21,502 nucleotides of DNA from a virus. Both the position numbers and the translations under genes were made by a program. The notes under the pieces are model-generated. The model saw only the letters and a list, made by a program, of their open reading frames with translations, searched no databases and had not been told where the DNA came from. Every line of letters begins with the position of its first letter. Position 1 is the stretch's first letter. Positions 4,708 through 18,477 of this stretch are shown in pieces. The stretch covers positions 1-21,502 of IMG/VR virus record IMGVR_UViG_3300029787_000389; one strand, 5' to 3'.

Positions 4708-5075
4708 GTACAGCAGATGATTTCTTAAAATCTGAAGTAATTAAAGAAGAACTAGATGATCTTCAGAGAACTTATACTGAGTTGTTGAGCATGTCTCAGG
4801 AGTTCAGTTCTTATGATACAGAGGGACAACTAGACCATATCAATAAGACACTAGAACTCATAGCAAAACAGAAGGTATTCTATGCACGTCTTCAGTTGAT
4901 GGAGCAGCATATCACATACGAAGAGGACGAGAAGGACAGTGAAGTGATGGATATGAAGAAGAGAATTGACAATGTAAGTGGCATGTATTCTGGTGGTAAA
5001 AATCTACTAGAGATTCTTGAGGCAATGGAGACAAAACTATTACAATGGAAGAGTGCACTACTTGACAAAACATAA
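4704..5075 (+). CDS. DUF1825-like protein (cyanobacterial-type family)
   Basis: A 123-residue, highly charged, helical protein. The first 70 residues follow the pattern of cyanobacterial DUF1825 proteins: an SEVIKEEL helix, then DLQRTYTELL, then the SYDTEGQLDHINKTLELI segment, then FYARLQLMEQ. The C-terminal 50 residues are a second helical segment. No catalytic motif is seen. DUF1825 is a small family of unknown function known from cyanobacteria and cyanophages, so this supports a cyanobacterial host. It is coupled to the gp33-like gene (ATGA at 4704-4707) and ends 60 bases before gp32. Its last codons contain the -35 box of the gp32 promoter. Confidence 0.7.
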   Translation: MSTADDFLKSEVIKEELDDLQRTYTELLSMSQEFSSYDTEGQLDHINKTLELIAKQKVFYARLQLMEQHITYEEDEKDSEVMDMKKRIDNVSGMYSGGKNLLEILEAMETKLLQWKSALLDKT

Positions 5076-5090
5076 ATAGTACGTTACGAT
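5062..5090 (+). promoter_or_regulatory. Host-type (sigma-70) promoter for gp32 with an embedded late box
   Basis: TTGACA (5062-5067) is followed after exactly 17 bases by TACGAT (5085-5090). That is a perfect -35 with a four-of-six -10, about 45 bases before the gp32 ATG. Within the spacer lies CATAAATA (5071-5078), one base from the T4 late box. The -35 overlaps the end of the upstream gene. gp32 is needed from the start of replication, which fits an early promoter; a late box would extend expression. Confidence 0.6.
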
Positions 5091-5135: not shown

Positions 5136-6041
5136 ATGTCATTCGCATCACTTAAGAAATCCTCAGGATCAGTTGCTAAACTGACTAAGGAGTTAGAAAA
5201 ACTTAGTGGCAAAGGCGGTGGAAATGGTCCTGACGATAGACTCTGGAAACCAGAAGTCGATAAGGCAGGTAACGGTTACGCAGTTATAAGATTCCTACCT
5301 GCACCAACAGGTGAAGATCTACCTTGGGCACAAGTATGGTCACATGCATTCCAAGGCACAGGTGGATGGTACATTGAGAATAGTCTCACTACACTAGGAC
5401 AAAACGATCCTGTAGGAGAACTCAATAGAGTACTATGGAACAGTGGAATTGATTCAGACAAAGACGTTGCTCGTAAGCAAAAGAGAAAACTCTCTTACTT
5501 CAGTAACATATTAGTAATCAAAGACCCACTACATCCAGAAAATGAAGGTCGTGTATTCCTATACAAGTATGGGAAAAAGATTCATGACAAATTAGTAGAA
5601 GCAATGAAGCCTCAGTTCGAGGATGAGCAACCAATCAACCCATTCGATTTTTGGAAGGGTGCTGATTTTAAACTTAAGATCGTCAAGCAAGATGGATACT
5701 GGAACTATGATCGTTCCGAGTTCGCTGCACCTACAACACTAGGTGACTATGACGATGCAAAGTTAGAAGAAATCTACAACCAAGAGTATTCTCTAGCAGA
5801 GTTTACTAGTCCTAAGAACTTTAAGTCTTATGAAGACCTAGAGAAGAGACTAAACTTGGTACTTGGGAAGGGAGCAGCGAGAGTAGAAACTCGTGTAGAG
5901 CAGGAAGAATTAGAAATTCCTGTGACAGTTAAAGAAGAGACCACTAAACCTACCAGTGGGTTTGGAGATAGTGTAGAATCATTAAAGACAGACGAGGATC
6001 CAGACCTCGCATACTTCAGCAGATTAGCAGAGGAAGATTAA
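5136..6041 (+). CDS. 32: Single-stranded DNA-binding protein gp32
   Basis: The 301-residue protein matches T4 gp32 (301 residues) along its length. It has a basic N-terminal LAST-like motif (K7-K8-S9-S10) for cooperative self-binding, the core segments AVIRFLP, WSHAFQGTGGWYIE, LSYFSNILVIKDP, ENEGRVFLYKYGKKI and FKSYEDLEKR, and an acidic C-terminal tail ending DLAYFSRLAEED that recruits replication partners. It coats single-stranded DNA at forks and recombination intermediates. His70 matches the T4 zinc-ligand histidine, but the three zinc cysteines are absent: the SLTTLGQNDPVGELN region has no Cys. This variant therefore should not bind zinc in the T4 way. ATG 5136 has an upstream ACGGAGAAT ribosome-binding site. 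Confidence 0.96.
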   Translation: MSFASLKKSSGSVAKLTKELEKLSGKGGGNGPDDRLWKPEVDKAGNGYAVIRFLPAPTGEDLPWAQVWSHAFQGTGGWYIENSLTTLGQNDPVGELNRVLWNSGIDSDKDVARKQKRKLSYFSNILVIKDPLHPENEGRVFLYKYGKKIHDKLVEAMKPQFEDEQPINPFDFWKGADFKLKIVKQDGYWNYDRSEFAAPTTLGDYDDAKLEEIYNQEYSLAEFTSPKNFKSYEDLEKRLNLVLGKGAARVETRVEQEELEIPVTVKEETTKPTSGFGDSVESLKTDEDPDLAYFSRLAEED

Positions 6042-15526: not shown

Positions 15527-17139
15527 TGGCAGCACAAGCAAAGGATTATAAAGTAGTAGATGCTTATATTGTACATGAGGGTACAAAGTATGACATCAAA
15601 GCAATGATAGCAGAGTTCGATTGGATGGAGAGTATCGACTCACCTTTCGTGCGTTGTGATATGACAATACTAGACTCGATACAGTTTGGTGATATACTAT
15701 TTGGTGATGAAATGGTTAAGCTATGTTTTGAGACATATGCATCCATAGACCCTGCACAGAGAAACAGTAGAAACGCTAAGAAGACTAGGATTGATGCTGA
15801 TCTACAGATTTATAAGATTGGTAGTGTAATCAAATCCGAGAGAGCAAAGGTTTATATTCTTCATTGCTCATCACCAGAGGTATATTTAAACGAAGCAAAC
15901 AGGACATTTGGTGGGTTCGGTCCTCATGCACAGAAACCAGATACAGTAAGGTATGTAATTAGTCAAAAACTGAAAGCACCACAGAAGATCAAGCATAAAG
16001 GAGCAATAGAACCACATAGTAATATTAATTTCATATCACCAAACTGGAGACCAGTTGACTGCATTTCATATGTTACTGATAAAGTTGTTAGAAAAGAAAG
16101 TAAAGGAGGAAAAGGTGGTAAGCTTACAACCCAGTCTGGATTCTTATTCTATGAAAATCGTTTAGGATTTAACTTCCAAAGTATTGATTACTTATGTGAA
16201 CAGGAATCATTAGAGACATACACATATACACCAGGTGGATCTGCAGAAGCTGCATCAGGTGACAATGCTTATCGTATTGAGAGTGTCACATATCCCGAAA
16301 GAATGAATCATCTTGATAAGATGCGTTCAGGGTTATATAAGAACATCACTTATGGACTAGTAATTCCTGCAATATCAGAGAGTGCTATACCTAATCCTGC
16401 AGCCACTAGTAGTGTAGCATTTGATAAGTTGTATGAGTCTGGAAACGTTCCTGCAGGTTTTTCCGTACCAGAATATGCTAGCTCATTATCAGGTTCAGAC
16501 TTTACAAACTATCTTGACTCTGCTAAAACAAGTACTAATTTCTTTAGTGCAGGTGGAGAATCAAGTCGTTCATTCAGTATGGAATCGTTTACCTATGCAA
16601 TGAACTTTAAGAATACTTCTAAACAGATACAAACTGCAGAGAATCAATCTAAAGCAGGTGGTACATCACAACCCCCTGCAGTATTTTCACTTGGGCAAGT
16701 CTTCTCTACTGCTTCTACACTAGAGAAAGCACCACCATTTGATGCGAAAAAGATAGAGCAATATTCTCAAGATCATCCAACAAGGATGAAAGTTAGGATC
16801 TTACCAAAATATACACAACAAACATCTGGTCAGCCCAATAATGGTGCTGATAATCAACCACAAGACGTACTAGTGACAGGTGCTTATGCTGCAGCAAGGT
16901 TAGCATTACTAAACACACTGACTCTTACTATTAAAGTTGCAGGTAATACTAGACTATATGCAGGTGGTATAGTTAAGACTGTTATACCTGAGTCTGGTAC
17001 TGAGAAGAATAGCGAAAATGTCAAGCAAGATAAGAAATATAGTGGTAGATATCTCATAAGAGGACTCAAGCATACCTACAAAAAGACTGGTATGTCTACA
17101 GAGTTGCATCTATGTCGGGATTCGGTACCAGCCCCTTGA
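15526..17139 (+). CDS. 27: Baseplate hub protein gp27-like
   Basis: A 537-residue protein, larger than T4 gp27 (391). The N-terminal segment VVDAYIVHEGTKYDIKAMIA, followed by FDWMESIDSPFVRCDMTILD, is the first tube-like domain of gp27-type hub proteins. A later segment HSNINFISPNWRPVDCISYV, followed by GFLFYENRLGFNFQSIDYLC, is the second conserved gp27 block. The C-terminal third is low complexity, with Thr/Ser/Asn-rich stretches, then a final domain ending HTYKKTGMSTELHLCRDSVP. gp27 forms the trimeric hub ring joining the tail tube to the gp5 spike. The 140-residue excess over T4 is mostly in the latter half. The -35 box of the cp12 promoter overlaps its stop codon (17137-17139). Confidence 0.83.
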   Translation: MAAQAKDYKVVDAYIVHEGTKYDIKAMIAEFDWMESIDSPFVRCDMTILDSIQFGDILFGDEMVKLCFETYASIDPAQRNSRNAKKTRIDADLQIYKIGSVIKSERAKVYILHCSSPEVYLNEANRTFGGFGPHAQKPDTVRYVISQKLKAPQKIKHKGAIEPHSNINFISPNWRPVDCISYVTDKVVRKESKGGKGGKLTTQSGFLFYENRLGFNFQSIDYLCEQESLETYTYTPGGSAEAASGDNAYRIESVTYPERMNHLDKMRSGLYKNITYGLVIPAISESAIPNPAATSSVAFDKLYESGNVPAGFSVPEYASSLSGSDFTNYLDSAKTSTNFFSAGGESSRSFSMESFTYAMNFKNTSKQIQTAENQSKAGGTSQPPAVFSLGQVFSTASTLEKAPPFDAKKIEQYSQDHPTRMKVRILPKYTQQTSGQPNNGADNQPQDVLVTGAYAAARLALLNTLTLTIKVAGNTRLYAGGIVKTVIPESGTEKNSENVKQDKKYSGRYLIRGLKHTYKKTGMSTELHLCRDSVPAP

Positions 17140-17164
17140 CAAAGGAAGCGAATATAAATATAAT
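17136..17164 (+). promoter_or_regulatory. Perfect sigma-70 promoter with overlapping late box, before cp12
   Basis: TTGACA (17136-17141) is followed by exactly 17 bases and TATAAT (17159-17164), the complete consensus for the vegetative sigma factor. TATAAATA (17153-17160), the T4 late box, overlaps the -10 by two bases. Transcription from the host-type promoter should start near 17171, only about 15 bases before ATG 17186, just ahead of the CGGAG ribosome-binding site (17176-17180). This predicts that cp12 and the genes after it can be transcribed early, independently of the surrounding late tail genes. Confidence 0.8.
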
Positions 17165-17185
17165 TGACGTAGTTACGGAGATTCT

Positions 17186-17413
17186 ATGGAATCCATTGAG
17201 AAGCACATAGACAAAGATAAGCAACTGATTGACGATCCACTAGCAAATCCTGCAGCACGCAGACACGCTAAAGCGGAATTACATGACTTAGAAGAGTATG
17301 CAGAGCACCACAAAGATGAAATCAAAGCTGGTGATCACCACGACCCTAACGCATTAGAACTATTCTGCGACCAAAATCCAGAAGAACCAGAATGCTTAGT
17401 GTATGACGACTGA
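17186..17413 (+). CDS. cp12: CP12-type Calvin-cycle inhibitor (cyanophage form)
   Basis: CP12 links GAPDH and phosphoribulokinase into an inactive complex and so stops the Calvin cycle. The 75-residue protein ends with the CP12 signature CDQNPEEPECLVYDD: Cys61 and Cys70 separated by eight residues, which form the redox-sensitive C-terminal loop that binds GAPDH. The ELHDLEEYAEHH helix (31-42) resembles the central CP12 helix. The N-terminal Cys pair of plant CP12, which contacts phosphoribulokinase, is absent; these are the only two Cys. Cyanophages are known to carry cp12, and by blocking the Calvin cycle they are thought to divert carbon to the pentose phosphate pathway for nucleotides. The gene has its own promoter and overlaps the next gene by 11 bases. 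Confidence 0.92.
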   Translation: MESIEKHIDKDKQLIDDPLANPAARRHAKAELHDLEEYAEHHKDEIKAGDHHDPNALELFCDQNPEEPECLVYDD

Positions 17414-18008
17414 ATTTATTAACATCGATGCACCTTATAGTTTCATCGGTGGTGGGAAGATAGAAGAATCAGTAGTAGATGGTGTTCTAGATTTCTGGGA
17501 CACCTGCGATTACCTAGAGAAACAAGAAGGATACTCTGGGGGTGCTTTTGGTGCGAAGGGAGGAGTTGATAAAGATATCAAAGACTCTATTGATATGACT
17601 ATTCCTAGGTATATAAAGGATAAAAGAATAACTAATTACATTGATGCTCTCGCAGAAGTAACTAGAGAGTACTGTAATTACTGGACAATGCTAAAGACTA
17701 TCCACTGGGATTTGATAGAAGATTTTAATATACAGTGGTATCCAAAAAGCGGTGGGTTTAAGAAACTACACTGTGAGAGGAACAGTGCACATCCTGAGTG
17801 TACCAACCGTGTGATGGCATGGATGACATATCTTAATGATATTCACGATGGAGGAGAGACATTCTTTGATGTGCAGCAGTGTAAAGTTGCACCAAGAAAG
17901 GGATTGACTCTCGTCTGGCCAGCAGATTGGACACATATGCATAAGGGATATCCTGCACCAACTGAGGAGAAGATGATTATTACAGGATGGTATGACCTCA
18001 TTATATGA
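17403..18008 (+). CDS. 2-oxoglutarate/Fe(II)-dependent oxygenase (prolyl-4-hydroxylase-like)
   Basis: A 201-residue protein with the double-stranded beta-helix oxygenase motifs near its C-terminus. The first iron ligands His123-x-Glu125 (KLHCERN) are an H-x-E in place of the usual H-x-D. The DGGETFFDVQQ segment (149-159) is the typical (E/D)-GGET-F-F of prolyl-4-hydroxylases. The distal His is His180 in WTHMHKGYP, and the 2-oxoglutarate-binding residue is Lys190, ten residues later as expected. The ligand set is complete, so it is probably active as a hydroxylase. The substrate is unknown: a protein, DNA or small molecule. Such oxygenases are abundant in marine T4-like phages. It overlaps cp12 by 11 bases and cpeT by 17 bases, suggesting one coupled transcript. 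Confidence 0.9.
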   Translation: MTTEFINIDAPYSFIGGGKIEESVVDGVLDFWDTCDYLEKQEGYSGGAFGAKGGVDKDIKDSIDMTIPRYIKDKRITNYIDALAEVTREYCNYWTMLKTIHWDLIEDFNIQWYPKSGGFKKLHCERNSAHPECTNRVMAWMTYLNDIHDGGETFFDVQQCKVAPRKGLTLVWPADWTHMHKGYPAPTEEKMIITGWYDLII

Positions 18009-18477
18009 TAAACTAATACTTGGTCATTATGAGAACAAGAAGCAAGCATATAGTAACCCTACCAAGTGGCCATGGGTTAATATCTTGTACACCAAGATCA
18101 AACCAGATGTTCTAGAACTAAAGCAATGGTATAACTATGATGGTGAGGAGAAACCTTACAGACACTATCATATAACATTTAGATATGAATATGAGGATAC
18201 GGTATTTACTAAAGCACATAATCTCTTAACTGATAAAGAGGGGTGTGAAATGCAGTGGGGATACTTTGCAGGTACATGGTATGGTGAGATCAAAGGTGAA
18301 TGTATAGTCAGAGATACTAAAGTTGTTAGTGCTGTAGAATTTGATGGTACAAACTACAGGTCAATTGACACTGGATATAACATAGAAACAGGAAAATTTT
18401 CTTGGGGTAAAGAACCGTCTGAGGGGTTCTTCACTTTTACTAAGCTAAATAATTCGAGGATACTAGATGTAACATAA
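17992..18477 (+). CDS. cpeT: CpeT/CpcT-family phycobiliprotein lyase
   Basis: T-type lyases attach or handle phycobilin chromophores on phycobiliproteins. The 161-residue protein follows the family layout: an N-terminal ILGHYENKKQAYSNPTKWPW segment, an ELKQWYNYDGEEKPYRHYHI segment (Q-Y-Y, then PYR), GCEMQWGYFAGTWYGEIKGE with Cys in the conserved GC-x-M position, ECIVRD, and SIDTGYNIETGKFSWGKEPS, matching the D-G-D-x-x-T-x-x-x-W-G signature. Cyanophage CpeT proteins are known and their exact effect on phycobilisomes is not fully settled. With cp12 it forms a photosynthesis-directed island. ATG 17992 overlaps the previous gene by 17 bases; no in-frame alternative lies nearby. The last codons contain the CTAAATAATT box of gp5. 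Confidence 0.9.
   Translation: MTSLYDKLILGHYENKKQAYSNPTKWPWVNILYTKIKPDVLELKQWYNYDGEEKPYRHYHITFRYEYEDTVFTKAHNLLTDKEGCEMQWGYFAGTWYGEIKGECIVRDTKVVSAVEFDGTNYRSIDTGYNIETGKFSWGKEPSEGFFTFTKLNNSRILDVT
18445..18454 (+). promoter_or_regulatory. Late-promoter-like box CTAAATAATT before gp5
   Basis: The third copy of the ten-base box, 32 bases before the gp5 ATG and inside the end of cpeT, where it encodes Leu-Asn-Asn. It would restore late expression of gp5 after the early-type cp12 unit. Confidence 0.55.

Follow-up and report, generated by a model that had tools for sequence, protein, structure and literature searches.

The cp12-oxygenase-cpeT form of the gp27-gp5 accessory-gene slot in a T4-like cyanophage, with overlapping early and late promoter elements at its left edge

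We analyzed a 21.5-kb IMG/VR virus record, IMGVR_UViG_3300029787_000389 (21,502 nucleotides; hereafter the window), whose source is of the T4-like cyanophage type, and in particular three genes, cp12, a 2-oxoglutarate (2OG)-Fe(II) oxygenase gene and cpeT, that lie between the genes for the baseplate hub proteins gp27 and gp5. This locus is the cp12-2OG-cpeT form of a standard T4-like cyanophage accessory-gene slot. In the account that we consider reasonably probable, drawn from sequence comparison, a dual promoter at the left edge would give middle-to-late expression of the trio, CP12 and CpeT would act in metabolism, and the oxygenase would be a protein hydroxylase. The slot itself was already known; new here are the prolyl-4-hydroxylase (P4H) fold of the oxygenase, its single hub-linked clade, its codivergence with gp27 and gp5, and the details of the promoters.

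A preliminary description of this DNA, made from the letters alone, had presented the trio as an island wedged between hub partners and proposed a comparison of gp27-gp5 intervals across cyanophages. When loci were picked by gp27, not by cp12, and counted where both hub genes were in reach (n = 70), cp12 lay between gp27 and gp5 in all 70 and cpeT in most, with the window's oxygenase family in 4 and other 2OG families in about 11. The window conforms, with cp12 directly 3′ of gp27 and upstream of gp5. The trio, arranged as in the window, is also found in P-RSM6, S-SZBM1, S-WAM1, and many IMG/VR contigs. Other fillings are cp12-cpeT, alone or accompanied by small genes or a tRNA (Syn9, S-SM1, P-SSM4, and Syn19), cp12-cpeT-pcyA (P-SSM7), cp12-ndhI-speD-cpeT with small genes (P-TIM40), and cp12 with a different 2OG enzyme and a tail-fiber gene (P-RSM4). 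A closed gp27-gp5 junction, as in P-HM2 (1-bp overlap) and P-SSM2 (4-bp overlap), is the exception among cyanophages. With the slot occupied in nearly all relatives, the window's arrangement is an ordinary one for these phages, and "wedged island" was an overstatement; what looked odd is the norm among T4-like cyanophages, whose hub operon has a fixed place for cp12 that also admits other accessory genes.

Sullivan et al. (2010, PMC3037559) had already described a hot spot close to gp5, with tRNAs, and had located cp12 in the vicinity of gp5 in some genomes; the window resembles that hot spot in its accessory genes; the 2OG clade and its promoter arrangement are not singled out in the available part of that account. 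P-RSM6 is the closest named relative of the window at the DNA level. It shares with S-SZBM1 and S-WAM1 all five genes in the window's order (2OG 66 to 70%, cpeT 59 to 87%, and gp5 51 to 80% identical), but in these three phages cp12 and 2OG are separated by 10 to 63 bp, whereas in the window they overlap by 11 bp. In the public annotation of S-WAM1 (NC_031944, 14433-15488), the slot oxygenase, named there "DNA endonuclease," and CpeT both appear to start too far downstream; longer open reading frames (ORFs) restore the conserved 14-bp overlap. In a more divergent clade (43 to 50% identity), cp12-2OG precedes gp5 and cpeT lies beyond it. Two tandem cpeT-like genes are found 3′ of gp5, not in the slot, in members of this divergent second clade (L019, L023, L024, L122, L126, L127, and L128).

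At the left edge of the trio is a perfect sigma-70 promoter, TTGACA-17-TATAAT, whose −35 element overlaps the gp27 stop codon. It is the sole 12/12 site on either strand of the window, with 0.014 expected per strand from dinucleotide shuffles, and the host-type promoter of the preliminary description is thus real; weaker promoter-like sites are as dense as in shuffles. In the relative L012, the promoter before cp12 likewise scores 12/12. An element overlooked earlier, the T4-type late box TATAAATA, lies within this promoter, so that early and late elements coincide. The cyanophage late motif has been published as NATAAATA (PMC2984593). Of 104 distinct loci, 65 have TAAATA 15 to 45 nt upstream of cp12, against 5.6 expected, and for gp5 the corresponding figures are 39 of 69 against 2.5 expected; the late-type box described for gp5 at the right edge of the trio is also confirmed, as CTAAATA. 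Separately, a second early/late overlap was seen in the window at 5062-5090, TTGACA-17-TACGAT with CATAAATA at 5071 in the spacer; it stands about 45 nt upstream of the single-strand DNA binding protein gene (5136-6041) and fits a middle-type promoter.

For RB49 and S-PM2, in which MotA and Asi are absent, a middle mode of expression through overlapping early and late promoters has been proposed (PMC2984593). There, as in the window, a sigma-70 consensus and a late box occupy one spot; in the window, known from its letters only, the late box has bases in common with the −10 element. Quantitative PCR gave no middle profile for a few S-PM2 genes (PMC2984593), and this mode is for that reason not settled. 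Still, given the late box within the sigma-70 promoter, the RB49/S-PM2 precedent, and the middle timing of cp12 in P-HM2 (PMC5082946), middle expression continuing late seems likelier for the trio than purely early expression. We propose that two polymerases would start at the left edge, the sigma-70 enzyme of the host and, at a later time, the gp55 late polymerase. Production of the trio would then begin in the middle phase and extend into the late one, and gp5 would be mainly a late product of its own late box. Of the earlier proposal of a small early operon within a late one, the promoter stands, but "early" is better read as middle continuing late. The promoter logic thereby becomes testable: fused early and late promoters should give middle-phase expression.

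How tightly the trio is coupled depends on the junction. Nearly all trio lineages have 2OG and cpeT overlapping by 14 to 17 bp, and the usual overlap of cpeT with gp5 is 1 bp. The cp12/2OG junction ranges from −11 to more than +70 bp, reaching 703 bp in L112. In S-SZBM1, S-WAM1, and L095-L104 it carries a consensus or near-consensus sigma-70 promoter, which overlaps the cp12 stop codon in most of them and, in these sister phages, abuts an imperfect palindrome, CAACACTGTCAGGGTTG; in the window and L012 the sigma-70 promoter is placed before cp12. From these positions, most trio lineages would have 2OG-cpeT under sigma-70 control, but only some would have cp12 under it. The idea of one coupled unit therefore holds only in part, better for 2OG and cpeT than for cp12, given its variable junction and the intervening promoter in some relatives.

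Descent also sets the oxygenase gene apart from cp12. Distances for 2OG correlate with those for gp27 (r = 0.91) and gp5 (r = 0.94), nearly as well as those for gp27 and gp5 with each other (r = 0.95), but not with those for cp12 (r = 0.03). L020 is 87% identical to the window in cp12 but 43% in 2OG; S-WAM1 is 55% identical in cp12 but 69% in 2OG. Lineages thus appear to have exchanged cp12, which is more mobile than the oxygenase; the latter stays with the hub genes. The ratios of nonsynonymous to synonymous substitution (dN/dS) against L012 (0.08 for cp12, 0.07 for 2OG, and 0.12 for cpeT) indicate that all three genes are under purifying selection.

The AlphaFold2 model of the oxygenase has a predicted local distance difference test (pLDDT) score of 92, and Foldseek places it in the P4H fold, with P4Hs from B. 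anthracis, P. putida (in complex with EF-Tu), PBCV-1, and Chlamydomonas as best matches (E values of 1e-8 to 1e-7 and TM-scores of 0.5 to 0.7). Across 45 homologues there is no variation at H123, E125, H180, and K190, which supply the His-x-Asp/Glu...His iron site and the basic 2OG-binding residue. The protein shares the double-stranded beta-helix, a similar size, the distal His, and the 2OG-binding Lys with the P. putida (4iw3) and B. anthracis (5iav/5hv0) P4Hs and PBCV-1 vCPH (5c5t), but it is only 15 to 22% identical to them and has the metal motif HxE. A single clade, separate from nonslot relatives, holds the 27 hub-slot oxygenases (Shimodaira-Hasegawa-like approximate likelihood ratio test value of 94, in a quick tree and below the starred level); the slot 2OG enzyme of P-RSM4 and S-TIM4 stands separately on a long branch and is probably a separate acquisition. 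We infer that the oxygenase is an active protein hydroxylase of the prolyl-hydroxylase type. Because descent ties its gene to the hub genes rather than to cp12, its protein target need not be metabolic.

Several points weigh against this overall account. The usual metal motif of P4Hs is HxD, and the HxE of the oxygenase departs from it. The low correlation of cp12 with 2OG may stem in part from the short length of CP12 (75 residues). Late readthrough transcription from gp27 could dominate real expression. Finally, in P-HM2 all auxiliary metabolic genes, including cp12, fall in the middle cluster (PMC5082946), but transcript timing in P-HM2 and P-SSM2 is not directly transferable, because gp27 and gp5 abut there and cp12 sits elsewhere, outside the slot.

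The trio might instead be a purely early metabolic operon inside a late operon, its oxygenase having proteins of carbon fixation or light harvesting as targets, much as the preliminary description had suggested. The perfect sigma-70 promoter, the metabolic neighbors cp12 and cpeT, the conserved 2OG/cpeT overlap, and the separate sigma-70 promoter for 2OG-cpeT in sister phages all fit such an operon. We nevertheless regard it as unlikely: a late box overlaps the left promoter, the P-HM2 metabolic genes are middle rather than early, and cpeT lies beyond gp5 in the second slot clade. The proposed carbon or light-harvesting targets are not supported, since the oxygenase tracks the hub genes and not cp12 and its fold is that of a protein prolyl hydroxylase.

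About as doubtful, in our judgment, is a more specific scheme, in which a hub-inherited prolyl hydroxylase, switched on before the structural genes by dedicated promoters (the sigma-70/late fusion in the window; sigma-70 abutting the palindrome in sister phages), would hydroxylate a single specific protein, either of the baseplate or of the host's translation machinery or antenna, as a regulated part of the infection.

A related possibility is that the substrate of the oxygenase is a virion protein, from the baseplate or elsewhere, the hub position being functional and the metabolic neighbors incidental. A hub-protein substrate is suggested by coinheritance, and the single hub-slot clade, the codivergence with gp27 and gp5, and the P4H fold are consistent with it, but plain vertical descent would give the same correlation, and the oxygenase is under sigma-70 promoters, ahead of the late genes. 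No collagen-like repeats were found in the hub and neighboring structural proteins, and the proline content of gp27, gp5, and CP12 differed little with and without the oxygenase; collagen-like targets there were accordingly rejected. We consider a virion substrate improbable. A chance pileup in a gene-exchange hot spot, with no joint function behind the order and overlaps and genes only tolerated, would suit the variable slot contents (pcyA, ndhI and speD, tail fiber, tRNA-Val, and other 2OG families) and the apparently independent swapping of cp12, but it is very hard to reconcile with the constancy of cp12 in the slot, conserved overlaps and late boxes, dN/dS near 0.1, and sigma-70 consensus promoters recurring at two positions in related lineages.

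The metabolic part of the preferred account rests on the other two proteins. CP12 scores 48.5 bits against its Pfam cutoff of 22.7, and its C-terminal cysteine pair, C61 and C70, is invariant in 12 phage CP12s and aligns to 6gfo and 3zdf. The N-terminal pair of canonical CP12 is absent from the window protein, which has two cysteines in all, and inhibition of the glyceraldehyde-3-phosphate dehydrogenase (GAPDH) type is thus likelier than the full phosphoribulokinase/GAPDH redox switch. GAPDH binding is a general property of CP12 and is its likely action here; by holding GAPDH through the C-terminal Cys loop, CP12 would slow the Calvin cycle and spare NADPH for nucleotide synthesis. CpeT scores 41.6 bits against a PF06206 cutoff of 21 and belongs to the phage CpeT family, to be compared with phage CpeT 5hi8, its closest solved relative, and CpcT 4o4o; it is longer than 5hi8 (161 versus 136 residues). 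This putative T-type lyase-like protein may aid bilin handling in the antenna.

The features are listed in Table 1. The gene identities proposed earlier for the trio and its hub neighbors are borne out by Pfam and PHROG and, for gp27, by predicted structure. A sequence search of the PDB gave no match for gp27 and hhalign gave a weak match to T4 gp27, so that sequence was insufficient; its predicted structure (mean pLDDT of 74) has T4 gp27 entries (9mkb, 2z6b, and 1k28) as top PDB matches (E values of 2e-15 to 2e-14), and we accept the label on that ground. The reported overlaps of 11 and 17 bases (cp12/2OG and 2OG/cpeT) agree with the ORFs, and cpeT and gp5 overlap by 1 bp. An Rfam scan of the window returned no match.

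Table 1. Features of the gp27-gp5 locus in the window and of the composite palindromic promoter in other phages
Feature	Position	Strand	Evidence or remark
gp27-like baseplate hub protein, 537 aa	15526-17139	+	phrog_350 E 3e-94; predicted fold matches T4 gp27
Perfect sigma-70 promoter TTGACA-17-TATAAT	17136-17164	+	12/12; −35 17136-17141, spacer 17 nt, −10 17159-17164
T4-type late box TATAAATA within left sigma-70 promoter	17153-17160	+	TAAATA at same position in 65/104 relatives
cp12, Calvin-cycle inhibitor, 75 aa	17186-17413	+	CP12 PF02672 E 1.5e-12; alignment; PDB CP12 chains E 5e-5
2OG-Fe(II) oxygenase, 201 aa	17403-18008	+	2OG-FeII_Oxy_3 PF13640 E 7e-10; pLDDT 92; Foldseek P4H; invariant residues
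cpeT, phage-type T-lyase-like protein, 161 aa	17992-18477	+	PF06206 E 1.6e-10; phage CpeT 5hi8 E 2e-35
Late box CTAAATA for gp5, within cpeT coding end	18445-18451	+	Conserved in trio lineages
gp5 baseplate hub and tail lysozyme, 892 aa	18477-21155	+	phrog_694 E 1e-205
Composite promoter beside gene 55	L175, L177, L179-L182 and others
Composite promoter before oxygenase	L176, L178, L187, L189, L190, L192
Composite promoter in Syn9 NC_008296	123689-123705	−

The palindromic promoter of the sister phages deserves separate mention as a composite element worth mapping, TTGACA-17-TANNNT directly abutting CAACACTGTCAGGGTTG. An exact scan for the palindrome found 70 IMG/VR stretches, 64 of them with −35 and −10 elements in register and adjoining it; the other 6 look like chance matches. 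A wider pattern gave at least 120 stretches, and the composite recurs in more than 100 cyanophage contigs. Of the 111 sites that were classified, a set with many near-copies, 84 are antisense and fall in the interval from a small gene (gp143 in Syn9) to gene 55, beside uvsW, and 19 precede the oxygenase, the rest being elsewhere; the copies beside gene 55 point antisense into gp143/uvsW, just upstream of this late sigma factor gene. The window has no match to the palindrome at up to 2 mismatches. A host origin was considered and rejected, the bacterial genome collection giving 4 matches, about the chance level and none cyanobacterial. The composite is apparently confined to T4-like cyanophages. 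It also stands a few bases before a small ORF in L198, near 8718 (MNKEHLKVLLKDLEFTLEELKAEVYSD...), and before a relative of that ORF in L183, near 3217.

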